This document shows, piece after piece, positions 15,618-58,176 of a stretch of DNA of 64,000 nucleotides. This DNA comes from Diplonema papillatum (lineage: Eukaryota; Euglenozoa; Diplonemea; Diplonemida; Diplonemidae): NCBI GenBank assembly GCA_030068145.1, contig JAPJBO010000245.1, positions 62,001 through 126,000 on the forward strand, written 5' to 3'. A program made the position numbers and the translations under genes. Position 1 is the stretch's first letter, and every line of letters starts with the position of its first letter. The notes under the pieces were generated by a model. It was not told the origin of the DNA. It searched no databases and saw nothing but the letters and a program-made list of their open reading frames with translations.

Positions 15618-17787
15618 TCAGGCGTCGACGTGTGAGAGTGATCCGTCTGTCGGATAGATCGGCTCTGTGCATTGAGCCCCGTGCAAGGACGAGGGGTTGG
15701 GCGTGTCGCCCACATCTTCGACGACGATGTCAACAATCGAGCCACTTGGTGTGGAGAATGGATGGTCTGGGATGGTCCTGGCCAGAGGCGGCGTGTTGCC
15801 TCTGCAAAAGGGAGAAGTCGTCGGAGTAACGGCAGGCGACAGCTTCGGCAACGGGGGGGTACTGACGTCCTGGGGAGGTTGTTGCGTTGTGAGGGTCGTC
15901 GGGTAGCACACCATAGCTTCCAGGTCTTCTCTGCAGAGTGGGCACGCCGGGCTCGTGGTTTCCAAACAACGCTTCTTGCGTTGCTGCTTGACGTGCGTCT
16001 CTTCTATGGTCAGCGCACAGCTTCTGCAGCAGCAGATGTGGTTGCACGGCAGGAAAACAACCTCGACGGGCTGGTCGACGCACGCAACGCAGACTTTCTC
16101 TTCGTCCGCGTGCGTGATCGGGAGGTACCGACTTTCGTGCTCCGGCTCACTCCCGTTCTCGGGATAATCCTCACCGAAACGGTACTTCGCGACGATCTGC
16201 AAAGAAATGCGTAGTTTTGTTTTATTCTTTTACTTGTTAGGAAAGGAGGGTTTTCAGAAGGAAGCAAATACTCATGTGCCTAATTGAGAGAAACTGTACT
16301 GAGGCGCCCCCAGATGTTGTGGACACAGGAGATTCGGCTGAGATTTTCGGAAGACCAGCGCTACCCCTTTGCGGGCAACGAAATACAGTTGGACCATCAC
16401 TCTTCTCCAGACTCGGATGACGTCGTGCTTATGCTGAATTTGCCGTGGCCTCACGAGTACTTTCGCCAGGTTTCCAGACTCGGGCCAGAGAAAGTTTTAC
16501 TAAAGCGGACATCTCGCCGACTGCGGTGCTGGCTTCCAAATACCGGTAGCTTCAAATACACACCTTCGCAGGGGGCAACGGCTGCCCGTCCGGAACTAGC
16601 CTACTGTTAGACACGGCATGCTGGCGCCGGATTTGCATGCGATACAAGAACAGAACAGTGCACCCGATACAGCAAACTCCTGACAAGACCATTGCCAAGC
16701 CTACGGCAAGCCACATCGAATCTGCTGTTGGCTCGACCGCAAGCACCTGCGTGAAGGGTTCTACCTACGTACAACGTTCGAGTAATTGTTCGAATCGGGT
16801 CCGAGCCCTTTTGCAGTCGTTTTGCGCGGTGTGGGCTCATTTTGGGGTCCCCAGAAGCTGGGGTAAAGCGGGTGTCACCCCCGCTTTTTCGGGTGTCACT
16901 CGGGGCCGGAGCTGGAGTCGGGCACACCCTCTTTAACCGCAACCTCTGAGGCTGGACCTCCTACACCGTACACGTGAGTGAAGTCCTACTGTAGAGTAGC
17001 TGAATTTCAGATAGCTGGATCATGGGCATACCAAACCGGTCGCGCATGCGGTGCACTCTTCTCCGATGGTGGATCGAGAATTGTTTACAACGCGGGTGCC
17101 GATGAAGGAAAACCGCCCGCACGTGTTGGCGCTGCTTGCACTGGTCATATCACCGTGCATGCAACGCGCCGACGAGCAGCACCATCCGCAGCCGCCGACG
17201 GAACCTTCACGTGTACAGCTTTCACACGTTGAGAACAAGTTGCAGCGGTCAGGGCACAGCTCCGCACTGCTCACAACCGCACCAGCACAGACCATGTTCG
17301 ATTCCATGCACGAGTTTGTAGCGCAGCACCATGAACACCCTGCGGCACACGAATCGGTCCATGAGCAACTATCCCGGACACAGCCCCGGGTCGGATGGCA
17401 GCTCTCATCTGGCAGACAGCAGTCAACACTTGTGCGTGCACCCGGGAACAACTTGGAAAAGCAACAGTCGGTCCCCATAGGGCACCCGCCACCCATCTCT
17501 CCACTGTTTCCGGGGTCGCAGCAGGTGTACCCCGCCTTAAAACAGTACGCGATATCAGTGTCAACGCCACAGCAAACGGGACGAGCCGTACTGCACGTAG
17601 CCGTCGGGGTGCATCGCACTCGTGCCAGAGTGTCCGCCGTACGAACGGTTTCGGTAAACCCGTCCAGTTGTGAAGCTAGTGATCCCAGTAAAATCACCGC
17701 CGCCATGCCCCCTATGCCCAATCCTGTCAACGTTTGTTGCCTCTTTCTTTCAACAGTAAGAGCTCTCTCTGCAGAGTCAATTGCCAT
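15618..17787 (-). CDS. Cys-rich membrane protein with cytosolic RING finger (probable E3 ubiquitin ligase)
   Basis: Three exons join in frame: 17032-17787, 16564-16746 and 15618-16196 (505 residues). Introns of 285 and 367 bp have CACGCAG and TTGCAG acceptors, and all junctions are phase 0. Residues about 22-42 are hydrophobic (signal anchor or signal peptide). Residues 55-250 hold over 30 Cys in CC, CxxC and WCC patterns, as in granulin- or PSI-like extracellular modules. A second membrane segment (LAVGLAMVLSGVCCIGCTVL) lies in exon 2. Exon 3 has a C3HC4 RING at residues 349-401 (CVAC, then PCNHICCCRSC, then CPLC). The layout suggests a receptor-like E3 with lumenal Cys-rich and cytosolic RING parts; the substrate is unknown. 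The only in-frame ATG lies inside the end of transposon E1, so the true 5' end is uncertain. A MITE sits in intron 1. Confidence 0.8.
16825..16969 (+). mobile_element. Foldback MITE, family M, copy 5, inside an intron
   Basis: CCCAGAAGCTGGGG, AAAGCGGGTGTCACCCCCGC, CTCTTTAACCGCAACCTC and GAGGCTGGACCTCC follow the family order. It lies wholly inside intron 1 (16747-17031) of the RING gene and makes up about half of it. Confidence 0.6.
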
Positions 17788-18135
17788 TATAGTCCGTGTT
17801 TTGTTAGATTTTGCCATTATAGTCCGTGTTTCCTTAGATTTTGCCATTATAGTCCAGGTCGCTTAGATCTTTCCATTATAGTCCATGATCCTTAGATTTT
17901 GCCATAATAGTCCAGGCCCTTAGATCTTTCCATTATAGTCTGTGTTTCCTTAGATCTTTCCATTATAGTCCGTGTTCCTTAGATCTTTCCATTATAGTCC
18001 GTGTTTCCTTAGATCTTTCCATTATAGTCAGATCTACAGTCCTGTCCGCTGTGACCAAGATTGTGGGCAAGTTGGACCCAAGTTGGGACCCAAGTTGCAG
18101 GAATGCGTGGATGGTGAGTGCTGCTCTTGAACACG

Positions 18136-18625
18136 GCGACTCCGGGTGAGCATGAAATGTAAGAATGAGCTTTTCACACCAGTGCGGACCCTAAGTTGGT
18201 CCAAAATCCCACCCAAACTTGGACCCACAAATTTGAACCAAAACTTGAGCCCGAAACTTGGACCCAAAACTTGGACCCAAAACTTGGACCCAAAGCTTGG
18301 ACCCAAAACTTGGACCCAAAACTTGAATTCAAACCTTGGACCCAAAACTTGGACCCAAAACATGGACCCAAAACTCGGACCCAAAACATGGACCCAAAAA
18401 CTTGGAGTAGAAACTCTTGTTTTGGACCAAAAACTTGGACCCAAAACTTGGAGTCAAAAGTTTTGTTTGGGGGCCCAAGTTTGGGTCGGCTTTTGGTTCA
18501 AGGTTTGGGTCCAAATTTTGGGCCAGCTGTGGGTCCGCACGTTGGCGTGAAACGCCGGTCACGGGCCCCGGTACGTCTGCTGCCGCTTTTTGCATTCTTA
18601 CGTTTTCATGCTCACCTTTTGTTGT
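18136..18625. repeat. Fold-back segment carrying a 14-bp array
   Basis: Inverted arms (GGTGAGCATGAAATGTAAGA at 18136 and its complement near 18588-18620) enclose about 18 diverged copies of a 14-bp unit, GGACCCAAAACTTG (18230-18480). It lies in the left half of E1 and has no counterpart in the right half, so it may be a separate insertion. Confidence 0.65.
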
Positions 18626-18886
18626 TCAATGTGGCAATTTCTGCTGTGTTTGCCGCCAGTTCTATTCCGCCAAGGGTGAAATACCGAAACCGTACGGTTT
18701 TCTGAGTTTTTGCCCAAAACAGTACTTTCCCCCAAGTTTGTGCTCAAAAGATCACCGACATTGGGACCCAAACTTGGGACGCAAACTTGGGACCAAAACT
18801 TGGGACCCAAACTTGGGACCCAAACTTGGGACCCAAACTTGGGTCCCAAACTTGGGTCCCAAACTTGCTTGGGTACCAAACTTGGG

Positions 18887-20720
18887 GGGCCAAAACCCAT
18901 TACAGTATGTTATCCAAACTTTGAACCCATTACGGTACATGATCCAAACTTTGAACCCATTACGGTATGGTGCCAAACTTTGAACCCATTACGGTATGGT
19001 TTTCCAAACTTTGAACGAATTACGGTAGGTTCCAAACTTTGAAACCCATTACGGTATGGTTTTCAAACTTTGAACGAATTCCGGTAAGTGTAAAATTTGA
19101 CATTGTCTTGACATTGAAATTTGACGTTGTCAGTCGAGGTCTGCAAGTTGTTAACAACGCAGTGTAATTGGGCGACAAATTCATCTTCTGTGGTGACTCT
19201 ACAGTGCCACGTCAGTGGTCGATCAGTCAGACTCTAAGGCAGACGGGTGATGGTTGCAGCTACCATGTCTTCAGTAGGCCGATCCTAAGTCATCATCCTT
19301 CTGCACCGCAGTAGCAACAGATTCACTTTCATCTCCAATTCGGCGACCTCCGAAATCCACGTTCAACGCAAAGATGCGGCGTTAGACTACCGTCACTACG
19401 GCTCATGCTGGCCGAGCGGCTGTGTGCTGCTGCTAGTAAACCTCGTGATCAGCAGGCACTGAAACCTACGGCCACGTCCGGATTGTGATTGGACCGGAAG
19501 AAGAGTCATGCTCATCGAGCTGCTTGCCACTTAGCCGCACCGTTGCGACAAATTTAAGAACAAAGTTCACAATCAGAAACGAAAGGTAAACCTGATCATT
19601 GTGGACGCATTTTGGGAAGCTTTGGAACGTTCGCGCCATTCGCAGATGATTCTGTCCATCACTTGCGTCAACAGGAAGGCAAAAAGAGAGAGATGAGGAG
19701 GAGGAAGGGTAAACTTCATGATCAGCAGTGAAAGTTGGCAGGCACTGCCCCTACTGTAGTACGGCGACCTCGGAAGCTCAGTGGAGTACTCTTCTCCCTG
19801 TTGCGAAAGCAGGATCCCTACCGACAGCGTAGGAGAGGAATAACCACCGACGGCCCATTACAGGGGGGGGGCTAAATACAACGAGCGCCCGTTGTATTCA
19901 AAGCGTCAAGCTCAAAATGCAGGTTCGCGGCAGAACGTGGTCTTCGAACACAACTGTTTTTCCATGCTAATCAACCGTGGGATTCTGCCCCCGTACAGAG
20001 GGAGCAGTTTTCGAGCAGCATTTGATACTTCGCAGTCGGTCTGAGTCCGCGACTCTGACTCCGCGAGCGTCACTGGATCCGGAAGTAGCAGCGGCGTTTC
20101 AGCCACAGGGTCGACTCGAGCGTGAATCGGACAAGCCGAATCGGAAGTGGACTCGTCGGGACCTCCTCCCATGAAGTCTGATGACGAGTGACGGAGGGCC
20201 CGGACCGCCGTCCGACCTGCTGGACAGGGAAGGAAGGCATTGGACCGGACCCCGGGGTGGGCGGATCGGGGGCGAGTGCGCCGCAATGGTGGTTGCCATG
20301 CACCGACTCTTCTTCAAACCCGAGCACTTCCCCTGGGGATGCATCTGTGCGAGGTCCTTCAGAAATCGAGAGGTCCAAAGCAAGCAGCCAACGTCGAGCA
20401 TGTGCCAAAAGACACAAACTGGATCCATCGACGCCAACTTCACATCTATGATCTCTCTCCACGTCCGCTTCTACGTATCTCGTTGGTGTTGGGCTTATAA
20501 CCTGACAGTGACACCGAAATGCTCAAACTTGAGAGTCAAAGTTTACAAATCATGCCGGAATTGGTTCAAATTTGGAACCTCACCGTAATGGGTTCAAAGT
20601 TTGAAAACCATACCGTCATGGGTTCAAAGTTTGGGACCATACCGTAATGGGTTTCAAAGTTTGGACCATACTGTAATTCGTTCAAAGTTTGGATAACATA
20701 CTGTAATGGGTTTTGGCCCC
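18887..20720. mobile_element. Transposon E1b nested inside E1
   Basis: Ends are perfect inverted repeats, GGGCCAAAACCCATTACAG on the left and its complement on the right. The 9-bp sequence AAACTTGGG flanks both sides (18878-18886 and 20721-20729). Inside each end are about six oppositely oriented units of roughly 30 bp (CCAAACTTTGAACCCATTAC with GGTATGG). It is inserted in E1's own 14-bp array, splitting it. The core, 19090-20570, has open frames of up to 135 codons but no domain I recognise. Confidence 0.85.
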
Positions 20721-21194
20721 AAACTTGGGTCCCAAACTTGGGTACCAAAGTTGGGTCCCAAACTTGTCTAATCTAAGGAATCACGGACTATAATGGAAAG
20801 ATCTAAGGAAACACGGACTATAATGGAAAGATCGAAGGAAACACGGACTAGAATGGAAAGATCTAAGGGCTTGGACTATAATGGCAAAATCTAAGGAACA
20901 TGGACTATAATGGCAAAATCTAAGGAATCGTGGACTATAATGGAAAGATCTAAGAATCGTGGACTATAATGGCAAAATCTAAGAATCGTGGACTATAATG
21001 GCAAAGTTCCCCTCTCTGCAGGCACCGCATGCGTCACTGGCACCCACAACTCTCCCACAGTGTTGAGGCCAAATTTTGAGCAAAATTCGGATTTTTTTTG
21101 GGATGGAAAGAGCTATTCACGGCGCGTATCGGCACCTTTTTGGACACTTTTTGCAGTGATGCCCCGCGATTTGGAATGGGGTTTTTTGGGAGGG

Positions 21195-21302
21195 GCAATT
21201 GCATGCTTACTGACCTGGAGGCCCGGGTTCGAACCCTGCCGAGGACACTTTTCCGGCCGAAAAGATTTTCGGGTTTTCGAGGCGTAATGTGCTGAAAATT
21301 GT
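21195..21302 (+). mobile_element. tRNA-derived SINE-like copy S1
   Basis: The B-box-like GGGTTCGAACCC at about 21228 is followed by CACTTTTCCGGCCGAAAAGA and AATGTGCTGAAAATTGTG. The same order appears, diverged, in the minus-strand copy at 34437-34580. The upstream A-box region is weak here. Confidence 0.5.
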
Positions 21303-21423
21303 GTTTTTTCAATGTCCCCGGTATTTGTAATTCGAGTCAGCTTTTAGCAACGCCTGCTTCAACGCCCGCTTCAGGATCGTTTTCGCCCATTTTGAATCAA
21401 TTTTTTTTTCTCTGGCCGCAGAC

Positions 21424-21496
21424 GCCTCCCTAGCTCAGTCGGTAGAGCGCAAGGCCCTTAACCTTGTGGTCGCGGGTTCGAGCCCCGCGGGAGGTG
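21424..21496 (+). tRNA. trnK-CUU: tRNA-Lys (anticodon CUU), copy 1
   Basis: A complete 73-nt cloverleaf: acceptor GCCTCCC with GGGAGGT (one G-U pair), D-arm GCTC...GAGC, anticodon stem CAAGG/CCTTG with loop CCCTTAA (CTT anticodon), T-arm GCGGG-TTCGAGC-CCCGC. There is no intron. It is followed by T5, a Pol III terminator, and then within 75 bp by a 14-bp satellite. It is identical to the copy at 58385. Confidence 0.97.
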
Positions 21497-21567
21497 CTTT
21501 TTCTGTGGCTTGGCGAGTCAATTCCTGTGTTCTTGTTTTCCGTGCTCGTGCTGGCCCTCACGAAGCT

Positions 21568-22932
21568 GGAGCCAAAGACTTGGAGCCAAAGACTTGGAGC
21601 CAAAGACTTGGAGCCAAAGACTTGGAGCCAAAGACTTGGAGCCAAAGACTTGGAGCCAAAGACTTGGAGCCAAAGACTTGGAGCCAAAGACTTGGAGCCA
21701 AAGACTTGGAGCCAAAGACTTGGAGCCAAAGACTTGGAGCCAAAGACTTGGAGCCAAAGACTTGGAGCCAAAGACTTGGAGCCAAAGACTTGGAGCCAAA
21801 GACTTGGAGCCAAAGACTTGGAGCCAAAGACTTGGAGCCAAAGACTTGGAGCCAAAGACTTGGAGCCAAAGACTTGGAGCCAAAGACTTGGAGCCAAAGA
21901 CTTGGAGCCAAAGACTTGGAGCCAAAGACTTGGAGCCAAAGACTTGGAGCCAAAGACTTGGAGCCAAAGACTTGGAGCCAAAGACTTGGAGCCAAAGACT
22001 TGGAGCCAAAGACTTGGAGCCAAAGACTTGGAGCCAAAGACTTGGAGCCAAAGACTTGGAGCCAAAGACTTGGAGCCAAAGACTTGGAGCCAAAGACTTG
22101 GAGCCAAAGACTTGGAGCCAAAGACTTGGAGCCAAAGACTTGGAGCCAAAGACTTGGAGCCAAAGACTTGGAGCCAAAGACTTGGAGCCAAAGACTTGGA
22201 GCCAAAGACTTGGAGCCAAAGACTTGGAGCCAAAGACTTGGAGCCAAAGACTTGGAGCCAAAGACTTGGAGCCAAAGACTTGGAGCCAAAGACTTGGAGC
22301 CAAAGACTTGGAGCCAAAGACTTGGAGCCAAAGACTTGGAGCCAAAGACTTGGAGCCAAAGACTTGGAGCCAAAGACTTGGAGCCAAAGACTTGGAGCCA
22401 AAGACTTGGAGCCAAAGACTTGGAGCCAAAGACTTGGAGCCAAAGACTTGGAGCCAAAGACTTGGAGCCAAAGACTTGGAGCCAAAGACTTGGAGCCAAA
22501 GACTTGGAGCCAAAGACTTGGAGCCAAAGACTTGGAGCCAAAGACTTGGAGCCAAAGACTTGGAGCCAAAGACTTGGAGCCAAAGACTTGGAGCCAAAGA
22601 CTTGGAGCCAAAGACTTGGAGCCAAAGACTTGGAGCCAAAGACTTGGAGCCAAAGACTTGGAGCCAAAGACTTGGAGCCAAAGACTTGGAGCCAAAGACT
22701 TGGAGCCAAAGACTTGGAGCCAAAGACTTGGAGCCAAAGACTTGGAGCCAAAGACTTGGAGCCAAAGACTTGGAGCCAAAGACTTGGAGCCAAAGACTTG
22801 GAGCCAAAGACTTGGAGCCAAAGACTTGGAGCCAAAGACTTGGAGCCAAAGACTTGGAGCCAAAGACTTGGAGCCAAAGACTTGGAGCCAAAGACTTGGA
22901 GCCAAAGACTTGGAGCCAAAGACTTGGAGCCA
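21568..22932. repeat. 14-bp satellite, about 97 copies, unit GAGCCAAAGACTTG
   Basis: The array is an essentially perfect tandem of a 14-bp unit over 1365 bp. Each unit contains CCAA-AGAC-TTGG, so the arms are palindromic. As 14 is not a multiple of 3 and the unit has no stop in any frame, it is open in all six frames; the 470-540-codon frames here are artefacts. Confidence 0.98.
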
Positions 22933-24018
22933 CGGCACGGACAACTGTAATCTACAGTGTAGATACCAGACACAAAAGAGAAGAAATGATACAGATCATG
23001 AACAATTGCGAGCTCGGGCTAGAAGCGATTGGGCAGGCAGATGGATTGCGGAAGACACGCAGATGAAACGTTGACAACTTGCATGAGAGCCTTTCTCCGC
23101 CGGAAGAAAGCATCTCCCGCTCGGGAGGTGTCCATCAGAACGCACGTTGGGGTTGTTTTCCTTTTTACATTTCTAAAAGAGGGAGGCCATTGCCAACCTT
23201 CAAGGCTCTGGGAACTGGAATAGTCTGTGGTGAGCTCACGCACCGCTGATTTATGATGAATCATCGGACGGGGTGTTGTGCCACAGTGCCAGATTTCAAA
23301 CTACTAAGTAGGTCCAGACTTTCTCTGGCCCAGTCTGACAGACTGAGCCAGTGCCAGCGTGGAAGCTTTCGTAGCTGAAATCCTGCTCTGGGTTCTGGCT
23401 ACCGAAATGCACTCATTGTGCCGCCAAAGTCTGGCACAGAAGAAGATAGAATCATATTAAGTCACACAACGCAGCAAGAGGACGCCTTTCGGAGCCTTCT
23501 GCGGTTCACAACGTTTGATGAGGTTCGTCACGAGAGGCATCCTTCACCGCAGTTTGCACTGTGCTTACGGCGGGGCTAACTTCGAGACAAATGCGCAAAA
23601 CCTTCGCGGTAAGGCTTGAACAGCCACGACTCTGACAGTAGAAGTTGCGCGATAAAAGCGCAGGCGTCAACTAGCAGCCTCTTGGTTACTCGATTCGCCG
23701 TGGAACAGGCGATCCGAGACCAGGGCTTGCTGCTGGAGCGACTTGTATTTCGAAGCCTGTTCGGTTTTGGAGCTATGAATCGTGGCACCGACCTCCGCAC
23801 CGGGGCGAGCTGATCTCGAGCAAAAGATCGTCGAAAAAGGATCTGCAACGTGAACCAGCGACTCTGAGCGAAAAACAGTCCAAAAAACGACAACCCAGTG
23901 CATCGAACCAGCGCACCGCACCGCACCGGCCCCGCCCACACTGATCGTGGTGTCAGCAGGACGTGCAACAGTGCTCGCGAAGAAGAGGACGGAACATAGT
24001 GACGTATTTTCTCGATAC
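22933..24018. other. No recognisable gene
   Basis: Unique-looking sequence lies between the satellite and the next gene. A small imperfect palindrome (CCCAGTCTGACAGACTGAG) is near 23330. The minus-strand open frame at 23576-24034 lacks coding-like features. Confidence 0.4.
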
Positions 24019-24762
24019 TTAAACTAGGGGCCACACCGGTTCCTGTTTAATGTACTTGTTGATGAGCTGCTGGCGCTTGTTCTTCGTGTTCGTAATGCCT
24101 TCGTAGTACAGCTTGTTGGTTACAACTGTGTCGTCAACCTTACGCCCCGCAGCGGTCCCGGGAGCGAAGCGGCGTCGAAGGCTGACAATGGTGTCTTCTT
24201 TGTGTTGCATGGCCTGGCTGTAAAGGCGGTCGACTGAAGCCTGCAACTGCTTCTGGTCCAGCTTTTCCTCCTGCTTGCCCGAGCTCAGGAAGCGCCGCCT
24301 GATGTCCTCGTGGTGCTTCCTCTGACGCTCCCGGCTCTGGGTGTACATACGATCCACGGCTTTCTGCTCCTCTTCCGCTGTGAAGCGCTTCGATTTCAGC
24401 TCCTGCGAATATGTTTCTGCATCGTCCATACTGTACAGCGAACAAACGCGCACAATCGACCGACTTGGCCTTGCTTACTAGTAAGCCCTGATTCTAAACG
24501 ACGTGTTTAGCTTTGGTTTTACCAGAAAAACAACGAAACCTTGGACATTCAATTCATCACGTGATTTTCTTGTGACTCAGATCGGAACCGAAACTTAACC
24601 TACGAACACGCAAGCGCACCCGCCGAACAGTAAGCGGCAATCGCATACCTGGTTGTGTCTTTCGCGCAGGTGCTCCAACCTCTTGTCCCTGGCTTCCGTG
24701 TAGTGCGAAGTCAGGCGCTTCGAGACCTCGTCGATCTGCGTCGGTTCGGGGTATGAGTGCAT
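24019..24762 (-). CDS. Small basic protein with RLY repeats (unknown function)
   Basis: Two exons, 24649-24762 and 24019-24402, join in phase 0 across a 246-bp intron (CAACCAG/GTATGC to TTCGCAG/GAGC), giving 165 residues. The protein is almost entirely charged helix and holds four spaced, related motifs: KRLTSHY, DRMYTQS, DRLYSQA and NKLYYEG. The second and third are followed after about 15 residues by IRRRF or LRRRF, a 35-40-residue repeat. Small RLY-type repeat proteins of this look occur in kinetoplastid gene sets, which fits a euglenozoan source; I cannot name the family with certainty. The first ATG after the AG at 24770 was taken as start. Confidence 0.75.
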
Positions 24763-24800
24763 TACGTAACCTGACTCGGTCCTGAGCAGTGCGAGCCGCA

Positions 24801-24833
24801 CCAACTTCCGCACCCACTGGGTGCGGAAGTTGG
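24801..24833. repeat. Perfect 15-bp-arm hairpin
   Basis: CCAACTTCCGCACCC, a 3-base loop, then GGGTGCGGAAGTTGG. It lies about 40 bp upstream of the start of the RLY-repeat gene. Confidence 0.85.
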
Positions 24834-25241
24834 GGGCCGAATACATTGTCTTGGAATACAATTGTCTTTTTTGGCCGGTTTCAGAGTCCGGCCAGCTGAA
24901 TAGAATTGTGTTGGAAGACAGTTGTTGTTAGTGCAGTTGCCGTGGAATACAATTGTGCACACGGTTTCTGATCGTGGCACAATAGGTCTGGACTCCGGTA
25001 GACTGGAGACCGGTGGCAGTGACTGGTGTGAAACTTTTACCTGGCTTTGTGGCCGTCACGAGCCTGTAAGAAGGCAGGGATGTGGTAGGCGGTGGCGAAG
25101 GGCGACACCCGGTACTGCTGCGGCCTGCCGGCCGTAGAAGATTTTTCCCGCAAAATCAGTGGTGAACCAGAGTGTTTTTGTCCGGGCCCGTAGTGGTGGC
25201 GCATTCGTCGGCGGAAGTCCGGAAAAGACCCTGACCTGAGC

Positions 25242-30078: not shown

Positions 30079-30250
30079 CTCTCCCCCCCCCCCACTCCCC
30101 CCGCCGCCGGGAATACTTCGGCCGATCCAGCCCTCGTCGCCCGTTTCCCCCGGCGCGTTTGCTGCGGGTGGGGTTTTGGAGTTGAAAGTTCGTATGAGAA
30201 TACGGGATTAGAGGGTTTTTGGGTGGGGTCGGCGGTTCGAAGTCTCAGCC

Positions 30251-30515
30251 TGAAGAACGTTGTAGTATGGTCATGGTAAGATAAAACCAGTGGTGGCACC
30301 TGATGAAGAACGTTGTAGTATGGTCATGGTAAGATAAAACCAGTGGTGGCATCTGATTAAGAACGTTGTAGTATGGTCATGGTAAGATAAAACCAGTGGT
30401 GGCATCTGATTAAGAACGTTGTAGTATGGTCATGGTAAGATAAAACCAGTGGTGGCACCTGATGAAGAACGTTGTAGTATGGTCATGGTAAGATAAAACC
30501 AGTGGTGGCATCTGG
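30251..30515. repeat. 53-bp tandem array, 5 copies, upstream of the kelch gene
   Basis: GAACGTTGTAGTATGGTCAT recurs at 30255, 30308, 30361, 30414 and 30467. Copies differ at only a few positions (CACCTGATGAAG or CATCTGATTAAG). It begins about 170 bp 5' of the kelch gene start. Confidence 0.9.
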
Positions 30516-30522
30516 TGCTGAT

Positions 30523-30612
30523 GATAAAAGTACGTGCGCTCGGCTAAAGGCCGGCGCGGGGCGAGACTGGAGGCAGCTGTTAAAGTTCGGGAAACAGTAA
30601 AGTTCTTTTGTT
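30523..30612 (+). repeat. Dispersed repeat, partner at 33852-33930
   Basis: GTACGTGCGCTCGGCTAA and CGAGACTGGAGGCAGC, then GTTAAAGTTCGG and AACAGTAAAGTTC occur in the same order in gamma-tubulin intron 2. Here it follows directly after the 53-bp array. Confidence 0.7.
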
Positions 30613-37483: not shown

Positions 37484-37509
37484 AATTACTGACCGTCGGC
37501 CAAGGCCGC

Positions 37510-38052: not shown

Positions 38053-38523
38053 TACCCCCCGCTCCTAAGTGTTGTTCAACTTGTCGCTGTCGCCGCAGCG
38101 TCGGCGCTGACAGCGCAGCTGACTGAGGAGGCCAATACTCAATAGTGTGTCGGTCGGATCACGCCGGCGATGTCTCTTTCATGGCCACAAAATGCTTGCT
38201 CGGGCGCCGCTCTCTTTCAACTTGAAATACAGTTCAAGGCAGCAGACTCTTTCAAAGTCTTTGCGACCTTGCTGCCACTAACAGTGTCACGCTCACTCAC
38301 GGTGACTGTGCAGCAGCCAACCGTCAAGTTTTCCGGCCAACGGTCAACGGTTCATCGGCGATTCTGACTCTCCCGTAAACGTGAAGGAGAAACCGTTTTT
38401 GTACTGAGAATGCGTGCCGTCAGGGGCTGAGGCAGGGCGGCAAGTGCGACGTTGCAACATCTGTACTGCCAGACGTGTTTGCCAGATTGGCTTGAACTTT
38501 GATGGAACCAGCGCGTCTGCACA
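38053..38523. other. Intergenic, nothing recognised
   Basis: Short spacer between two same-strand genes, with no repeat or RNA structure noticed. Confidence 0.45.
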
Positions 38524-47589: not shown

Positions 47590-48154
47590 ACCATACGTGC
47601 CATACGGCTGGGCAGCCACCCCTTCCCCTTACCACCCTCACCTTACCAAACTCTTCAGCTCAACTCAGCATCTCAAAGTACAGTGATGTAGGGAAATTGG
47701 TAGGTAGGCACTTGACCCGCGGGCTCTTCCGTACTGCCATGCGCGCTTCTGTCAGTAGACCCCCGGCCGGATCTAATTGTTGTCAAAGTGGTACGAAAAG
47801 AAAGGGTGCCCAAACGGTGGGAAGGTTGGGCTGGGGGAAAGGTCGAGCTATCGCTGGGCGATCAGTACCACCGCGAAAGTACCGAGACGGCGAAACTACT
47901 GACAGAGCATCTGAGAGCTGGTAGTGCACGGCCAAGCTTTGGGCAAGCATTGCGCTCATTCGTTCGTTTTTTTTTTTTTGGGAACATCGGACCACGACAG
48001 GAGGCGCGAACACGCGAGCGAAGAAGGCTTAAATGCTTGGGTCCACGGCAAGGTGTGGAAGCCGCCGCAGCTTCTACCTTATTATTTCCGGTATCAATCA
48101 AAGGACGTGAGTAGAAAACCAGGTCGACGGCACGCGAGGGTGCAACGACCGCTG
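47590..48154. other. Intergenic, nothing recognised
   Basis: Spacer between two same-strand genes. A T12 run lies near 47970. No RNA gene or repeat is seen. Confidence 0.45.
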
Positions 48155-49740
48155 CTACATAGGCATCTGCTCTTGTATGACCTTGAGGATGCGCAGGATG
48201 CGCGTTTGCGCCGTGGCATTAGGCATGTGACTGCGCGCGATGGTGAGGGACTGCACCATGTTGCTGTCGCGGATATCGTATATCTGCTCTTCGTAGCGCA
48301 AGAGAACCAGCAGGATGGAGACGATGTCAGCAGCCATGTTCTCAGACGATGGGTACAGCCGGAGGGCATGCGAGAGCATGCCCACGAGTCGGCTGTGCCG
48401 CAGCACGCCGACCCTCTCGGAGTTGTATGCAGAGGCCGCATACTGCTGTTCCGTCAGCTCACCCCGCGCGAACTCGCCGAGGAACATGATGCATGCTTCT
48501 ATGACCGGCTCGGCTTGCTGGACCATTTCCTTCTTGCTCGCCATTTTTTCGCGGATCGCCAGCATCGTGAAGCCGAGCGACAACCGCAGCTTGTCGACTG
48601 CGATCTTCGGCAACTCCGCTTGCGCGACTTGGACAGACCACCGGTTCGAAAACGCGCACGCCCCGCGCAAAATGGATGAAACCAACGCACCATTCACATT
48701 GAATGTCCTGCGAGAGTTCCACGTTGCTGGCCTCACGACCCGCGCGAGCTTGTACACCCACTTCGCGTCTGCCAGGGAGGTGATAACCCTGAAGTCCTCG
48801 GCGGAGTACAGGAACAGGATGATGCGCGCCGCGACCCTGATGGCATCGTTTTCACGGAACTTCTGCAGCGCCTCGCTATCGCGAGGGCCCGCACGCAAGA
48901 AGCTGGCCTCAATTAGCGCAAAATCTTCTGCGCGAATCTCCGTCAGAAGCGCGGCGTCGCAGGTCACCAGGTCGTACAGCAGTCGATTGAACGTCACTGC
49001 AGATTTCGGCAGCTCCCGCCTCGCCCCCTCGAACTCGGGTGAAGACACCCGCCGCCACCAACGCAGGATCGGATGCACAACCGCGACCTCTCGGAGGATC
49101 GACGTCTTCTGTAGACCGGCCGCAGCTTTTACGACGACTGAGGGGTTTTTAGCGCGAAGTTGGTGTCATTTTGTGGTTCGTGATTCTTGTTACCGTGACA
49201 GCTTGAACATTGTTGACAACTCAAAAAAAAAAAAGTTCACGCCGCTTTTCAAAATGCCACGCATCCCTTGTAGGAATTCAAAATACCTGACAGCAAAGTA
49301 ATGGCTGCAAGAAATGCTTTCTTCCCTTCCTCACTCGCTTCTTTTTGCGTTTTGTAAACATAGCGAGCGGTCGCTTCGAGAATCTGATGACTGTCCAACA
49401 GCTCGTTCATGTACTCCGGAAGCCACTGCAGAGTGCGCGACAAGATGCCCGCAGCCAGAGCTGTAACTTCAAGATCGTCGTTTTGGAGTAATGAAATGAG
49501 AAGATGAACAGGTCGCTTGGCACTATCCAGATTTAGAAACGACCCCCACGCATTAAAGTGACAGTCGAGTTCTGACAAGTCGCCTGCTGCCGGCGGGTCG
49601 AAACTGCTCAGAGTGATTTGCAGGTCGTCAAGCAGCGCAAAGATGGCAGACGAATCCCCTCGCAAGATGGTCTTTGTCATGTTTCGCTTCGTGCGTTCAA
49701 GCGCATCACGAACTGCGTGCGGCAGTGTCTCGGCCGTCAT
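48155..49740 (-). CDS. Helical ARM/HEAT-like protein, unknown function
   Basis: Two exons, 49287-49740 and 48155-49125, join in phase (1 then 2) across a 161-bp intron (CTGTCAG/GTATTT to GTAAAAG/CTGC), giving 474 residues. The start is the ATG at 49740 (MTAETLP). The protein is almost entirely amphipathic helix with leucine-rich pairs such as LLISLLQNDDLEVTALAAGI and NMAADIVSILLVLLRYEEQI, the pattern of ARM or HEAT repeats. No catalytic motif, signal peptide or membrane segment is seen. The acceptor AAAAG is weaker than others in the window; TCTACAG 17 nt on is stronger but breaks the frame. It lies directly beside the left end of element E5. Confidence 0.8.
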
Positions 49741-50144
49741 GCGAACTAACCCCACGTACTGTATTTCGTGTTGCCACGAAACAGACTCCACCGATACACA
49801 GCGCGCGAACGAGGTCTTTCGCCAAGCAACAGCAGTGTTAAAATTGTTTGCCGTCCGCCGTCGAAGAGGCGCGGCTACAAAACGTCGCATCTCGCCTTCC
49901 TTTCTCTCCCCCGGCCTGTTATTCCAACTGCGACCCATCAGTGTGAGACTTAGCTATAGCTAGCTGATAGCTAGCTATAGCTAGCTAGCTATAGCTGAAA
50001 ATAGCTAAAATAGCTAAAATAGCTGACTGAGCATTTTCAACGGAAATGTCACTATTCCGACTATTTTCTCGGATGTTGTGCCGTTTTCCACAGTTTACCG
50101 GGATTTTTCAGGCAGATGATCAGCATGAGGCACACCGTGCTACC

Positions 50145-50405
50145 CCCCCCCAGGCATCTTGTTAAGAACCATCCATCCATCCATCAGCCGGCTGACCCCC
50201 CCCCCTCAGGCTATTTTCACTGTGGAGGGGGGAGACGCTACCTGTCACACTCTAAGGTGGTCACCACGGTGGGCGGTCAGAAAAAAAAAAAAATTTTTTT
50301 TTTTGCCCCAAATACCCCAAATACCACACTTTGGAAAATTTTTGTGGGCCCACTTTTGGCAGGCATTTCACCTTATAGAATTTGACCACCCAGCCTCCAA
50401 GGCAC
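50145..50405 (-). mobile_element. Second copy of the dispersed repeat at 8280-8638
   Basis: On the minus strand it follows the 8370-8636 sequence with few changes, from TGCCTTGGNGGCTGGGTGG to AACAAGATGCCTGGG. About 11 bp present at 8405 (a GGTCAAAATTC repeat) is missing here. Confidence 0.75.
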
Positions 50406-50433
50406 CGTCAGCCGAGCTTGTCAGAGCTTGCTG

Positions 50434-50548
50434 AATAGTTCTATAATGGGCACAAAGTTAAGAACAGTTCTATAATGGGCAAAAAGTTAAGAATAGTTCT
50501 ATAATGGGCACAAAGTTAAGAAAATGTGCTATAATGGGAATTAGCCCC
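50434..50548. repeat. Solo terminal array of the E1/E2/E3 family
   Basis: Four units of 27-29 bp containing CTATAATGGGCACAAAGTTA end in CTATAATGGGAATTAGCCCC. Read inverted, this is GGGGCTAATTCCCATTATAG, the family terminus followed by its array. No opposite end is found nearby. Just beyond is a palindrome, GCGCCAGAAAAC with GTTTTCTGGCGC (50568-50600). Confidence 0.6.
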
Positions 50549-50879
50549 GCGCCAATCGCGCCAAACGCGCCAGAAAACAGGGTTTTCTGGCGCGGCTGGC
50601 GCAGGAGCCACACTGGGCATTCTGAGTTCTCGTTTCTTTTTCTCTCTTGTGCCGTTTCAGCAAAGATCCCCTTCATTGGCCGCCTGGCTTTGTTTGCACT
50701 ACAAGACGCATTTCATTCGCTCTTCTTGATTCCTTGCAGTGGCTTACTTGCAGCTAAGTCGACTCGACAGCTTGAGAGAGACAGCTGCTCTCAGTCACAG
50801 CATGACGATGGTGGCAATGAGGATTGAACCCGAGACAAGAAACGAATACAATTTGTGTTGCAATCACTACCAAATGCAA

Positions 50880-51366
50880 ATTAGTGACCAACTGGGAAAG
50901 AAGTTGCAAATGAGTGATGTATCGGGAAAGAAGTTGCAAATGAGTGATGTATCGGGAAAGAAGTTGTAAATGAGTGATGTATCGGGAAAGAAGTTGCAAA
51001 TGAGTGATGTATTGGGAAAGAAGTTGCAAATGAGTGATGTATCGGGAAAGAAGTTGTAAATGAGTGATGTATCGGGAAAGAAGTTGCAAATGAGTGATGT
51101 ATCGGGAAAGAAGTTGCAAATGAGTGATGTATCGGGAAAGAAGTTGCAAATGAGTGATGTATCGGGAAAGAAGTTGCAAATGAGTGATGTATTGGTGATG
51201 TATTGGGAAAGAAGTTGCAGGTGAGTGATGTTTCGGGAAAGAAGTTGTAAATGAGTGATGTATTGGGAAAGAAGTTGACCGTGTGTGATGTATTGGGAAA
51301 GAAGTTGCGAATGAGTGATGTATTGGGAAAAAAGATGCGAATGAGTGATGTATTGGGAATCCACCC
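50880..51366. repeat. 30-bp tandem array, about 16 copies, with a family-type terminus
   Basis: Unit GAAGTTGCAAATGAGTGATG followed by TATCGGGAAA, period 30, with small variants. The array ends GTATTGGGAATCCACCC; inverted this is GGGTGGATTCCCAATAC, close to the E3 terminus (GGGTCAAATCCCATTCAC). No mirror array is seen, so it may be a solo or broken element. Confidence 0.85.
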
Positions 51367-51399
51367 ATGCTAGAAAGCTGCAAAGAAAAGTGTCAGCCG

Positions 51400-53054
51400 C
51401 ATAGCTGTCAGCCACAAGGTAGCCACTAGTGGCTAATTGGGAGCCACAAAGTAGCCACAAACCTTGTGGCTACCTTTGTGGCTAATTATGCAAAATTTTG
51501 ATACCCAGGAAAACCAGTTTTTCGGCCAGAAAATGCATCTAAAACACAATTTCTGATGACTTTGACAGGTTTTTGGGCCCGAATTTGGGTAAGCTGCTTC
51601 GCCCTGGCCTCGTATCCTCAGCCGCGAGTCAGCGGCAACGTTGGCAACTCTATCAGTAACTTCGTACAACACTGCAAGTAATTCAAGGCTTGAAAAGTTC
51701 AGAAAACAACAACAAGCTGCATCTTGCCAACACGGTCGCAGCACCAATGCTAATGCCATAGTTCTGGTACATTTTGAGTCAGAGAGTGCACCGGAGGAAG
51801 ACGAACCCGTCGAAAGCGATGTTGATATTTCAGACCGCAGAGTCAGTACGAAGCTGCCAATGCTTCTGTTGCCAAGTTTTGGAGCAGGCAAGGAATCAAT
51901 TTAGTTCAAAGGGTCGCTTGTCCGCAAACCCGTTTCAGTTGCGGGGTGCATAGTCTCCAACTTTTCCTGCTAAAGGACCCAAACCACGCCGGTGACAGCC
52001 GTACTAGTAACGGCGATGCACTGATATTCTAAGATACCCAAGGTTAAACAGGACAGCAACGACCCAGCAAACGGAGCATTTCACAATTACGACAGCTCTT
52101 CTACTCGGTACCCCGTCACCAGCGAGTTTGCTTGCTTGCTTGCAAAGTGCACAGAGCTCGCAACTTCACACGGCAGCAGGCATAGTTACTATGATAGTAC
52201 AGCAGGAGCACACTGACAGTGTGACTGACTCCCTGTAACAGCTGTCACTGAGTGGCACTGTTACACTTGTTGCAATCAGCGTCCGAAAGAGTTCAAGGAG
52301 GAGCCAAAGATCCGAGAAAAGTAGCGGGGGCAATCTCTCACACGTCTTGGAAATTCCTCGCAGGCTCCTGTAGCACAGGCCCAGCCAAGGCACAAGGGAA
52401 AGTTGAAAGTGACTGACTTGCGACAATACCAGTCCAGCAGGGCAGCACGGGCCGCAGGCCCGCGGCAGGGAGCTCAAGCTCAGTCACCATCCGCCAGCTC
52501 CTGACTATTATCAGACGGCTGCCACGTTTTCTTTGCAGCTTTCTGGCAGCATTCAAATCTGTTTGGCTGCGGCGGTACTTGCCGCTCTCTCCCACTCCTC
52601 CTCTGGGGTCATTCAAGAGGCTCGGAGAGCGCCGGTCGCTGGTTGAGAGGCCCTCTCAGAGGGTTTCAGGACAGAAATGGTAAGCGCTTTGCAAGTAGAA
52701 TGGGTCTGTCACTCTCGCCAACCTGAATTATGCATGATTCTGTGTGCATAATGCCTACTACTACTTTGGTAGCAGTAGCGGTTTAGTAAACCGTTTACCA
52801 ATGGTACCCCAGGGTGCGCAACCAGGATGCCGAGCCCAGGGTGTAGCAACTAACCCGTATTCTGGCCCAAAACCCTGTCAAAATCGTCAGAAAACGTGTT
52901 TCAGATGCATTTTCTGGCCGAAAAAGTTAGTTCCACGCGGTTTTCCGTGAGACCAAAATTTTGCATAATTAGCCACAAAGGTAGCCACAAGGTTTGTGGC
53001 TACTTTGTGGCTAAATGGGGCCACAATGTGGCAACCTTGTGGCTGACAGCTATG
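51400..53054. mobile_element. Element E6 with about 200-bp inverted repeats
   Basis: The ends start CATAGCTGTCAGCCACAAGG and stay about 80-85% alike over roughly 200 bp (51400-51610 and 52830-53054). They include GTGGCTACCTTTGTGGCTAA and TTTTTCGGCCAGAAAATGCA. TCAGCCG flanks both sides if E2 is removed. The 1.2-kb core has short open frames (51641-51904 plus; 52338-52616 minus) without a recognised domain. Between 52430 and 52560 it contains an inverted copy of the very sequence into which it is inserted. Confidence 0.75.
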
Positions 53055-53056
53055 TC

Positions 53057-54908
53057 GAGTCAATACCCAAGATAGTACGGTTTTTCTTAGAGTTGATCAA
53101 GATAGTACATGTTTCCTTAGAGTTACCCATTATAGTACATACCTCTTAGAGTTGATCAAGATAGTACATGTTTCCTTAGAGTTGCCCATTATAGTACATC
53201 CCAAGATAGTACGGTTTTTCTTAGAGTTGATCAAGATAGTACATGTTTCCTTAGAGTTGATCAAGATAGTACATGTTTCCTTAGAGTTGTCCATGATAGT
53301 ACGTTTTGCTCTGGTACGGTCTCTTATCCTGTTCTGTTCTGTCCTGAACGAAGCCCGGGCAAAACGAGGCTGGGATAAGGTCCAAAACAGTACGTTTCCC
53401 GAGTTTGTGCCCAAAACAGCACCTTTTCCTGTTTGTGCCCAAAAGAGTACTTTGTTCTAACTTGAGTGCGGGTCCAAGTTTTGAGTCCAAGTTGTGTCCA
53501 AGTTTCTGCAGAACCAGGTTCGGTTAGCAAATCCAGACTCTCATCGAATCAAGGACCAAAATGGCAAGGTTTGCTGCCATGCCGATCAAAAACTGAAACA
53601 CAACAGGCATCAATTCCCCTCAGCCGGGTTTTCCTCGCGTGCAGCACGGTGCACCGCGTTTGAGACCCAAGTTTGGGACCCAAGTTTGGGACCCAAGTTT
53701 GGGACCCAAGTTTGGGACCCAAGTTTGGGACCCAAGTTTGGGACCCAAGTTTGGGACCCAAGTTTGGGACCCAAGTTTGGGACCCAAGTTTGGGACCCAA
53801 GTTTGGGACCCAAGTTTGGGACCCAAGTTTGGGACCCAAGTTTGGGACCCAAGTTTGGGACCCAAGTTTGGGACCCAAGTTTGGGACCCAAGTTTGGGAC
53901 CCAAGTTTGGGACCCAAGTTTGGGACCCAAGTTTGGGACCCAAGTTTGGGACCCAAGTTTGGGACCCAAGTTTGGGACCCAAGTTTGGGACCCAAGTTTG
54001 GGACCCAAGTTTGGGACCCAAGTTTGGGACCCAAGTTTGGGACCCAAGTTTGGGACCCAAGTTTGGGACCCAAGTTTGGGACCCAAGTTTGGGACCCAAG
54101 TTTGGGACCCAAGTTTGGGACCCAAGTTTGGGACCCAAGTTTGGGACCCAAGTTTGGGACCCAAGTTTGGGACCCAAGTTTGGGACCCAAGTTTGGGACC
54201 CAAGTTTGGGACCCAAGTTTGGGACCCAAGTTTGGGACCCAAGTTTGGGACCCAAGTTTGGGACCCAAGTTTGGGACCCAAGTTTGGGACCCAAGTTTGG
54301 GACCCAAGTTTGGGACCCAAGTTTGGGACCCAAGTTTGGGACCCAAGTTTGGGACCCAAGTTTGGGACCCAAGTTTGGGACCCAAGTTTGGGACCCAAGT
54401 TTGGGACCCAAGTTTGGGACCCAAGTTTGGGACCCAAGTTTGGGACCCAAGTTTGGGACCCAAGTTTGGGACCCAAGTTTGGGACCCAAGTTTGGGACCC
54501 AAGTTTGGGACCCAAGTTTGGGACCCAAGTTTGGGACCCAAGTTTGGGACCCAAGTTTGGGACCCAAGTTTGGAACTCAAGTTTTGGGCACAAACTCAGG
54601 TCCGAGTCAGGAAACCGTACTCTTTTGGTATTTCACCCAACCAGCAGCCCGTGCCTGGGCCACGGCTGGGAGGGGGGTCTCTAAAAAAAACGAAGAAAAA
54701 GCAAAAACTACGGTTTCTGTGCATTTTTCTTGCATTTCTGGGGGCCTTCCAGGAGTTTCAAGTGTGTGTACTATAATGGGCAACTCTAAGGAAACATGTA
54801 CTATAATGGGCAACTCTAAGGAAACATGTACTATCTTGGGTAACTCTAAGAGGTATGTACTATAATGGGTAACTCTAAGAAAGTGTGTACTATAATGGGA
54901 AATGACCC
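53057..54908. mobile_element. Transposon E2 (E1/E1b/E3 family) with central 14-bp array
   Basis: The 9-bp AGCTATGTC flanks both sides (53048-53056 and 54909-54917). The ends are GAGTCAATACCCA and, inverted, GGGTCATTTCCCATTATAG. About seven units of 27-30 bp (CTTAGAGTTGCCCATTATAG with TACATGTTTC) lie inside the left end and about four inverted ones inside the right end. The centre is a 14-bp array. Sequence between arrays (CAAAACAGTACGTTTCCC and GAGTTTGTGCCCAAAA) also resembles E1 near 18710-18750. No transposase is seen. It is inserted in the last bases of E6. Confidence 0.88.
53662..54573. repeat. 14-bp satellite in E2, about 65 copies, unit GGGACCCAAGTTTG
   Basis: Essentially perfect tandem over about 912 bp. 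Each unit holds CCCAA-GT-TTGGG, palindromic. It is open in all frames, so the 300-400-codon frames are artefacts. Confidence 0.98.
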
Positions 54909-54985
54909 AGCTATGTCAGCCGTCTGATAATAGTCAGGAGCTGGCGGATGGTGACTGAGCTTGAGCTCCCTGCCGCGGGCCTGCG

Positions 54986-55165
54986 GCCCGTGCTGCGAAC
55001 CCGGGAACTCCAGCCCTAAACCCTGGCACCGTTCACTCTGCCATTACGGCGTCAATTTCCAGGGGCAAAAAAAGCTATGCCTACGAAAAAGTGCCCCCGG
55101 GCTTCGCCCCCGACCCCCTAAAAAGTGGGGTTGGCTCGATAGAGCTATTAGCATACCTCTAGTCT
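54986..55165 (-). mobile_element. tRNA-derived SINE-like copy S3
   Basis: On the minus strand: GCTCTATCGAGCCAACCCC, then CATAGCTTTTTTTGCC, then an A-box-like TGGCAGAGTGAACGG and a B-box-like CCCGGGTTCGCAG. This is the same order as the copy at 34437-34680. It starts where the E6 target sequence ends. Confidence 0.5.
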
Positions 55166-55194
55166 CGGAAAATAGCTAGCTGGCCAAATAGCTA

Positions 55195-58176
55195 CTGGGG
55201 GGGGCCAATTACAATTGAGTTCAATTGTAATATAACGATACACGGCGTGGAATTGGGGGGTCTCAGACCCCCCCCAAAAAACACTAGTGTATTACAATTG
55301 AAGTGCAGCTTGCGGGTCAAATCCCATTCACGAGCATTCTCAAAACTTTTTGCCCATCCACGAGCATGCTTGAACTTTTCGCCCATTCACGAGCACTGCC
55401 ATTCCCATTCACGAGCATGATTTTTTTTTTAGCCCATTCACGAGCATTCCTCAATAGTTTTAGCCCATTCACGAGCATAGCCTAACTTTTTGCCCATTCA
55501 CGAGCATGCTTCAAACTTTTTGCCCATTCACGAGCATGCTCAAAACTTTTTGCCCATTCACGAGCATGCTCAAAACTTTTTGCCCATTCACGAGCATGCT
55601 CAAAACTTTTTGCCCTTCACGAGTATTCTTATTTTTTTTGCCCAATCACGAGAATTCAAGCATAACTTGCCATAAGTCAAATTGGCTCAAGCTACCGAGT
55701 GCACATTACACGTGTAGGCGAGTTCAAACTTTCAGCCGTTCAGCTTAGAGCAGGATCAGTTCAATTCTGTCGCTCCCATTCGGTGATACGGATCTCTCAA
55801 CAGCTCAGTCGTGCATGTCATGACTGTCCAGTTCTGTTTTGTGTTTCCGACGATCCCGTTTTTCTCAATTACGTTTCCTTCTTCAAGTGTTTCCTAATAG
55901 TTTTGCGTCGCCGACCATGATGAAAGTCGGCCCGTTTAAAACGGCGTTTTGGGTATTACCGTACTTTGGGTATTGACACCGGCCTGCTCTGACAGATGTA
56001 TTTCGACCTTTGAGTTTTTTTCTTAGCCACATGCAATGTGTGAGGAAACTGAACTGCCCAAGTAGGACCTTCTGATCATGATCATTTGCCAAATTTACCA
56101 CCTGAAACCACGTCCAGGATTTGGCTCAGGGTAGTGCGGTCAAAAAAAAGTGACGTGGCTCTTATTATTTACGCACAGCCGTTTGTTTGTGCGTATGTGT
56201 ATCACCTGTATGGTAATTTCCACAGTACGCTGCCAACCGTCACTTTTTGATAATGACAACCGCGGTTGTTACCATAAAAAAACTTTCCCTTTCTACGTTT
56301 TCCTACTCTCGCGGTGTACGGTTTCCTTGTTTGGTCATTTGAAAAATCGAATCTCGAGTCCAAGAACTACTGCAACTCACTGACTTAGAGCAAGTTAGAC
56401 ACATCCTGAACAGTACCCCTTGCAGAACCAGGATTGAACCAGGATTGTGTTGTCGTTGACTGAGAATCAAGGGAGACAAGCTTTGAGATTTCGTCGCGAG
56501 GTGACCCCTCGCCCGCTAAAATGCCCCCTCTCGGGCTCACCCCCTCGCCATTTTTTTTCGCGTCAAAGTTCCTGTTCTGGCCCTCGGCTCCCTTTGTAAA
56601 AAGGTTGAGCTCTGGGCCGGTGCGGGAGCTTCCCGGCGCGGAGAAGAATGGAGATGGCCATGGTCACCTTTACCACTTTTTCTTCATCGGGTTTGTTAGG
56701 CTGCCGCATATTAGGCATGAGCCTGTGCGGTCGCAAAGCCGGGAACTTTGCCATTATAGTCCACGATTCTTACTGGGGGGGGTCGAATACAAGAGGTACC
56801 TCTTCTATTCGGCGTGCCGATCCTGCAATTTTCCCGAAAAAGAAATGGAAAAAAGTACCGCAAACCCGGAAACCGCGGGAACTCCCTTCTTCTTGAAAGA
56901 CGCACGTAATTTGTGGTCCCCGGGTCTATTTTTCACGGTTCTCTTCATCGGAGCTGAACGCGAGCACAAATTCGCCGGGCAAAAAGGTCTGCAACATGCT
57001 CGTGAATGGGCAAATATTTTGAAGCATGCTCGTGAATGGGCAAAAAGTTTTGAGCATGCTCGTGAATGGGCAAAAAGTTAGGCCATGCTCGTGAATGGGC
57101 GAAAAGTTATGGCCATGCTCGTGAATGGGCAAAAAGTTTAAGGTGCTCGTGAATGGGCAAAAAGTTTGAAACATGCTCGTGAATGGGCAAAAAGTTAAGC
57201 CATGCTCGTGAATGGGCAAAAAGTTAAAGATTGCTCGTGAATGGGAATTGACCCTGCAGCTTGCCTGTTAGAAACACGTTGTTGTCGTGACTAAATGACA
57301 CAGTCACGGTGACAGTGTGAGTACAATGCAACTCCGAGCAAAAACTGAAGGGAAAACCTTCACACAACAAGCGAAAGGTTGGAGCCCGCAGTTAGGACTC
57401 CGAGCCCTGATTTCTCGTGCACCGGGTCGGAAATACCCAACTGGTGCATGCCGTGGGTGTTTCCACCAACACCTGGCAAGACTCCTGCCAAGACTCTTGG
57501 AAGAGAGTACCCTAACTTGGGCCGAAGGTTCACTTTTTCTGGGGCTGTTGCTCAGTATCGGAGTTTCCAACAGCATGGCGACCGCAGTCCGACGAACTTA
57601 CTGCTTCTCTTTTGGAGAGAGAGCGCTGGCGGCAGACGGGAACCACTGATAAATCTGGGGCTAACAAGATGTCCCATCCGATGGGCCATCGCCCCCATGC
57701 CGGGCCACGGTCACGATTGGCAGTGTCTCCGGCTGGCTCCGAAGTCAACTCCGGACCTGGCACAGCAGCTCCGGAGCCACCCCCACACTGCGATTGCCGG
57801 CCCATTGCCATGTTTGTGCTTCATGATCCCCCGCACACAGCCAGCTCCAAGAATTTGGCACGAGCAACGGCATCAGCGACATCATCATGTCAAAACCTTA
57901 GGAAGCCCCGGGTTCCAAAACCTCGTTTTAAGATTTCTTCTCCGCTTTGGAGGTCTAACATGACTTTTCCAAAAAAAGCCGAAACGAAACCGGCCCTGAA
58001 ACCGCCTCACTGGCTGGCTCACACTCAACGGCAGTGCGAAAGTGTCAGCCGTACAGTAACATTACAATTCAATTGTATTATACGGTTGGGATGCGCCGAT
58101 TCCCCGAAAAAAAAGTTCAATTGTATTATACGGTTCAATTGTATTATACGGTTCAATAGTAATTAGCCCCCCCCAG
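55195..58176. mobile_element. Element E4, holding E3
   Basis: CTGGGGGGGGCCAATTACAA on the left is mirrored on the right as CTGGGGGGGGCTAATTACTA. TAGCTA flanks both sides. Inside the ends are oppositely oriented CAATTGTATTATACGGTT units (three or four on the right, fewer on the left). The open frames at 57379-58166 have no recognisable domain. Confidence 0.7.
55314..57254. mobile_element. Transposon E3 (E1/E1b/E2 family)
   Basis: A perfect 10-bp duplication TGCAGCTTGC (55304-55313 and 57255-57264) flanks the ends GGGTCAAATCCCATTCACGA and, inverted, GGGTCAATTCCCATTCACGA. Inside are arrays of about nine 28-30-bp units on each side (GCCCATTCACGAGCATGCTC then AAAACTTTTT), in opposite orientation (55325-55660 and 56985-57245). 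The core includes a fragment of the dispersed repeat also found at 10140-10540. No transposase is seen. Confidence 0.9.

Follow-up and report, generated by a model that had tools for sequence, protein, structure and literature searches.

Mirrored terminal repeat arrays mark what are very probably sister families of Mutator-like elements in Diplonema papillatum

The Foldback (FB/NOF) elements of Drosophila have long ends made of tandem repeats, a 9 bp target duplication and an enzyme related to that of Mutator-like elements (MULEs). Two groups of MULEs also resemble the elements described here. Muta1 of Aedes aegypti has a terminal motif followed by nine subterminal repeats of 12 bp and makes duplications of 8-9 bp, and subterminal repeats of 9-15 bp occur in 10 of 14 Aedes MULE families (PMC5225508). 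Tm1 Mutator/Foldback elements of root-knot nematodes carry 1-9 units per end, most often of 14 bp, and are flanked by 9 bp duplications (PMC3169594). In Galileo, a member of the P-element superfamily and an analogy for mechanism only, the tandem repeats of the ends were found experimentally to hold multiple binding sites for a THAP-domain transposase (PMC3688188). The genome of Diplonema papillatum (~280 Mb) has been reported to contain more than 60 open reading frames (ORFs) similar to proteins of TATE, MULE and Helitron elements, the MULE ORFs appearing in one sentence and in the abbreviation list (PMC10161547). We analysed a stretch of 64,000 nucleotides of this genome (the window; contig JAPJBO010000245.1, positions 62,001 to 126,000), in which four elements, E1, E1b, E2 and E3, each carry mirrored repeat arrays at their ends. 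The host is a marine protist. We consider it very probable that the four are MULEs of several sister families, none with an intact transposase of its own, and we hold the proposal as a whole, with the mechanism set out below, at that same level. The elements, their flanking repeats and their arrays are placed in the window as follows.

17774..21011, no strand assigned: element E1, termini GAGTCAATTGCCATT / GGGAACTTTGCCATT, interrupted by E1b
17765-17773 and 21012-21020: flanking repeat of E1, CTCTCTGCA, exact, 9 bp
17783..18029, plus strand: left terminal array of E1, unit CCATTATAGTCCGTGTTTCCTTAGATCTTT, period 30, 8.4 copies (Tandem Repeats Finder, TRF)
20771..21006, minus strand: right terminal array of E1, mirror of the left, period 30, 8.0 copies (TRF)
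18887..20719, no strand assigned: element E1b, family A, termini GGGCCAAAACCCATT, no transposase match; flanking repeat CAAACTTGGG, exact, 10 bp
18896..19086, plus strand: left array of E1b, unit CCCATTACGGTATGG...CAAACTTTGAA
20536..20712, minus strand: right array of E1b
53057..54908, no strand assigned: element E2, family D, unit CCCATTATAGTACATGTTTCCTTAGAGTTG, with an internal 13-bp satellite
53048-53056 and 54909-54917: flanking repeat of E2, AGCTATGTC, exact, 9 bp
53068..53302, plus strand: left array of E2
54767..54899, minus strand: right array of E2
55314..57254, no strand assigned: element E3, family B, termini GGGTCAAATCCCATT / GGGTCAATTCCCATT, no full transposase
55304-55313 and 57255-57264: flanking repeat of E3, TGCAGCTTGC, exact, 10 bp
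55323..55652, plus strand: left array of E3, unit CCCATTCACGAGCATG...AACTTTTTG
56977..57245, minus strand: right array of E3
56673..56738, minus strand: possible leftover of the 3' end of a family B transposase in E3 (tblastn of protein P0001, introduced below)

An earlier, sequence-only reading of the window had described four elements with arrays of ~30-bp units mirrored at both ends, each bounded by a different exact duplication. Both features are real: TRF finds arrays of ~30 bp period in mirror orientation at the two ends of all four elements, and the four flanking repeats measure 9-10 bp, that of E1b being 10 bp rather than the 9 bp originally given. The common terminus that had been proposed, GGGYCAAWNCCCATT, is exact at both ends of E1b and E3, but E1 (GAGTCAATTGCCATT / GGGAACTTTGCCATT) and E2 (GAGTCAATACCCAAG / GGGTCATTTCCCATT) have looser variants that do not fit it. 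The termini of the families read GGGNYAANN or GAGTCAA and lead into a mirrored array of ~30-bp subterminal units. A genome search by terminus pattern with a direct-repeat filter had been suggested at the time. Across the assembly (271 Mb) this pattern has 182 + 189 = 371 hits, against 0 + 4 = 4 for the reversed control; GGGCTAANNCCCATT (family F) occurs 365 times (control 1), GAGTCAANNNCCATTATAG (E1) 26 times (control 0) and one further pattern 222 times (control 15). The sample analysed consisted of 40 stretches taken around listed places (100 of the 371 were listed) and 8 initial loci.

Pairing of termini in this sample gave 39 pairs in families A, B and C, counted once per insertion, of which 34 are flanked by an exact repeat of 9 bp (19 pairs) or 10 bp (15 pairs). 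When left and right ends were mismatched, none of 1482 pairings had a repeat of 9 or 10 bp, and a single one had 6 bp. The count of 39 excludes L030, whose flanks are those of L029, any locus in which a terminus had no partner, and E1 and E2, whose termini do not belong to families A-C. Of the 8-10 bp range first put forward, the 9 and 10 bp lengths thus stand, whereas an 8-bp duplication was seen in none of the 39 pairs. The two flanks of each of the 34 elements were then fused across a single copy of the repeat and compared with the other sampled loci; a match had to reach at least 95% identity along 150 bp or more and to contain no more than one gap. Empty sites, the absence of which had been named as counter-evidence, were found for 6 of the 34, each with a gapless match. 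For E3 the joined flank matches both L032 and L010 at 100% identity across 200 bp. At L012 a family C element sits within a family B element, the uninterrupted site of which is present in E3 (99.5%) and in seven other family B loci. The direct repeats are therefore target duplications, and their length falls within the 8-11 bp range of MULEs (PMC6446971).

Full-length members with a transposase ORF, which the sequence-only reading had proposed to look for, do exist. One of them, at L011 (C153), is a family B element of 4336 bp with the arrays of E3 and the target duplication CGGTCAACA; between its arrays lies an open frame (P0001) of 929 codons from stop to stop, ~860 from the first ATG used. 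P0001 matches PF00872 (Transposase_mut) with 23.2 bits, above the cut-off of 21, and PF10551 (MULE) with 22.4 bits, below the cut-off of 27.6. Its closest database protein, P0002, recorded as Diplonema papillatum, matches both above the cut-off (PF10551, 44.3 bits; PF00872, 21.3). In the two proteins the SWIM profile is weak and below cut-off, and the single NCBIfam match, IS256, lies far below its own; in the PDB the transposase alignment is matched best by 6xg8, a transposase of the Mutator family (E 9e-5). Residues D261, D324 and E435 are invariant in the three aligned sequences, as are C541, C543, C553 and H555 (CxC...CxH); the former are candidate DDE residues and the latter a candidate SWIM zinc motif. 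An N-terminal cluster (C53, C115, H136, C138) is also kept in all three and is presumably zinc-binding. Among the ~8000 candidates sharing most words, scored per search, the only wider homologues were P0002 and P0003.

Both transposases are repetitive in the assembly. P0001 has at least 66 matching stretches, with five full-length at 100% among those listed, and P0002 has 70, with six full-length and one partial at 100% among those listed. The six contigs on which P0002 is encoded in full at 100% mark the assembly as that of D. papillatum. The 100% copies suggest recent spread. More distant MULE-like frames of ~1000 aa were also seen, several copies scoring equally, in C177, C207, C643, C684 and C151 (29% to P0001), and others in C65, C363, C594, C815, C868 and C1027 (28% to P0002).

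Transposases of four lineages are found inside or next to arrays of four types (B, A, H and J). Besides the family B element at L011, a transposase in C571, 45% like P0001, has a family A array with the terminus GGGCCAAAACCCATT upstream. A genome search for the predicted target duplication together with the opposite terminus gave a single place, C571:132169, and the family A element is thus C571:132179-135942, a copy of 3764 bp that is flanked on either side by the 10 bp repeat CACTGCAGAG and whose array was read at one end. Its array type is that of E1b. In C489 an H-type terminus (GGGACAATTCCCATT) and the start of an array, one ATAGTAC-type unit and then CCCATTCTCGAACAC units, stand 888 bp past the P0002 match, and at L041 and L005 a start-codon fragment 85% like P0002 precedes an H-type array. 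A gene at C170:283549 has a J array (ACCATTCTCACAC units) upstream. For H and J we infer that array and gene belong to one element. Family C copies retain an N-terminal transposase fragment (94 matching stretches), which, at 84%, also starts the frame in C476. The possible leftover in E3 (22 alignment columns, 77% identity, E 5e-4) is weak alone; tblastn of P0001 matches the same piece in seven further family B loci.

To follow the history of the arrays, we compared the first four units of each end, numbered from the terminus, by alignment score per base in elements of families A (15), B (12) and C (11), with the ends sorted to two sides by their own unit sequence (at least one was misassigned, family A giving 14/16 and not 15/15). 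Units of the same index score 0.94-0.995 across copies, and units of different index within one element 0.80-0.86. Arrays therefore descend as arrays and are not homogenised copy by copy. Unit order is conserved within families A, B and C, and the number of units per end (2-11 in A, 2-11 in B, 1-10 in C) differs between copies and between the two ends of a copy. On the evidence of these sequences, arrays are passed on with their units in order, individual units being gained or lost, and their amplification apparently preceded the spread of each family. The sequence-only reading had held that the arrays were amplified and homogenised separately in each lineage; the first part agrees with amplification before family spread, while the second does not hold at the level of single copies.

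That reading had also seen the array sequence differ between elements under a constant layout, which extends to ten array types with a common frame of 29-30 bp. Outside CCATT, which served as search anchor and the conservation of which hence carries no evidential weight, the frame has A or C at position 7 in all ten types, G at position 10 in 8/10, A at position 12 in 8/10 and C at position 13 in 9/10. Mean identity across the types is 0.66 in the frame (15 positions) and 0.45 in the block (12 positions), the ten consensus units being hand-picked, with types F and G drawn from 3 and 8 units and class D impure. The middle block is thus less conserved than the frame, though not random.

These results can be brought together in a mechanism. 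The N-terminal zinc-binding region of the transposase would bind the repeated unit, and several bound copies would raise the affinity and specificity for the end. The MULE core would cut at the GGG terminus and insert with a stagger of 9-10 bp. Each family's array would have been amplified from an ancestral unit before the family spread, and the middle block of the unit would have changed together with the transposase, with the frame staying as it was. Carried further, this would mean that at least four, and perhaps at least ten, orthogonal transposase-array pairs exist in one genome, with a fixed 29-30 bp frame (CCATT-MNNGNAC...AACTTTTTG) and a short family-specific block, and that new binding specificities become fixed through array amplification. 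We put this extension forward tentatively, as a possibility somewhat short of an even chance.

Rather than serving as transposase-binding sites, the arrays might be a mere by-product, left at the element ends by slippage or by gap repair, and might feed satellites or give rise to hairpin RNA. Unit number does vary between copies and between ends, 13-bp satellites lie within several members, and a foldback element that seeds a satellite has been published (Tetris, PMC4079207). However, the ten array types share their frame at positions outside the search anchor, and although common descent alone could preserve part of that frame, we regard the by-product account as rather unlikely. Movement by another superfamily with 8-9 bp duplications, such as Merlin, KDZ or hAT, is compatible with duplication length alone, but the transposases between or beside the arrays either give matches to MULE and Transposase_mut or are related to proteins that do. 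In the profile comparison, none of the Merlin, KDZ or hAT families is among the Pfam matches listed (E up to 10 for the L011 frame, up to 1 for P0001-P0003), and we rejected these candidates, leaving them a very slight probability. Slighter still is the chance that the direct repeats arose by coincidence, the mirrored arrays being no more than inverted minisatellites. The repeat of E1b, which is nested within a 13-bp satellite inside E1, is indeed weak evidence taken alone, and five of the 39 pairs lack an exact repeat, yet this explanation is refuted by the 34/39 against 0/1482 count and by the gapless empty sites.

Several observations weigh against the proposal as a whole. Among the five pairs without an exact repeat, L032 has 10 bp with one mismatch. 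The flanks of six further transposase lineages held a fitting array in three (A, H and J); the transposases in C183 and C206 have no array within 501 bp upstream, and an array link for C170:286882 was dropped, the upstream array being a G-type end in the wrong orientation. For the own families of E1 and E2 nothing more was seen than a relic next to arrays of types E and D at L009, in a copy with no recognised target duplication. Family C is tied to a transposase solely through its N-terminal fragment and the C476 frame. In the other four P0001 copies the target duplication was not recovered, the stretches having missed most ends, and the left end of the copy in C420 appears damaged. Some of the identical copies may be duplicated contigs, as L029 and L030 share flanks. 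The predicted structure of P0001 (mean predicted local distance difference test score, pLDDT, 43) was too poor and was used for no claim.

The FB/NOF elements, compared here by description, have different repeat units. With tandem repeats mirrored at both ends, the Diplonema elements do have foldback-type structure. They lack the N-terminal FLYWCH zinc finger of the Phantom subclass, no FLYWCH being among the Pfam matches listed for P0001, P0002 and P0003 at E up to 1. The transposases of Tm1, in contrast, form a single lineage, which belongs to the Phantom subclass and has FLYWCH (PMC3169594); Tm1 resembles the Diplonema elements in its short terminal motifs, conserved and variable unit parts, MULE transposase and unequal unit numbers at the two ends. 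Muta1 shares with them a MULE transposase, a terminal motif with subterminal tandem repeats, many non-autonomous copies and variable repeat number, and the Aedes MULEs likewise include sister families within one genome (PMC5225508). The Diplonema elements differ from Muta1 in their 29-30 bp units, 9-10 bp duplications and euglenozoan host, and also in the unlike unit order at the two ends and the ten array types with one frame. The combination, which the sequence-only reading did not recognise as described, is therefore not new as such, as published MULEs already combine tandem-repeat ends with target duplications of 8-9 bp (PMC5225508, PMC3169594), and the single transposon family of that reading is better seen as a single superfamily with several sister families. 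In the literature searched, no account of such elements in Diplonema came to light, and the main text of a MULE survey never names Euglenozoa, Discoba or diplonemids (PMC6446971).

The window holds further repeats around these elements, including a single array end.

50433..50547, minus strand: single end of family F, GGGCTAATTCCCATT with unit CCCATTATAGAACTATTCTTAACTTTGTG

A scan for a partner of this end with a target duplication gave none. A 13-bp satellite of TTTGGGACCCAAG type occupies 18211-18867 in E1 and 53658-54584 in E2, and similar satellite lies inside elements of L015, L017 and L031 and also in L009. Very pure 14-bp tandem arrays are found at 21567-22932 (100% matches, 98 copies) and 58465-62606 (99%, 295 copies). 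Inverted ends GCATAGCTGTCAGCCACAAGG... / ...CCTTGTGGCTGACAGCTATG seem to delimit another element at 51398-53054, which E2 abuts and similar text to which is present in L006 and L014. A further array with a 30-bp period, GGGAAAGAAGTTGCAAATGAGTGATGTATC, stands apart at 50875-51359; the CCCATT frame is absent from it. Elsewhere in the sample, at L050 and L053, text like a tRNA B-box (GTTCGAGTCCTGC / ACTCGAACCCACGACC) adjoins array ends; we take it to be possibly a short interspersed element.

The layout of these elements is already known from insects and worms; the novelty lies in the host group, in units of 29-30 bp and in the sister families as a set, four of them with an assigned enzyme gene. 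Repeat-array MULEs are thereby extended to Euglenozoa. With sister families in which arrays and enzyme genes are matched, and some copies of which are listed at 100%, the joint change of transposase and ends can be tested directly. If the orthogonal transposase-array pairs are real, they would form a natural series for the switching of binding sites in MULEs.

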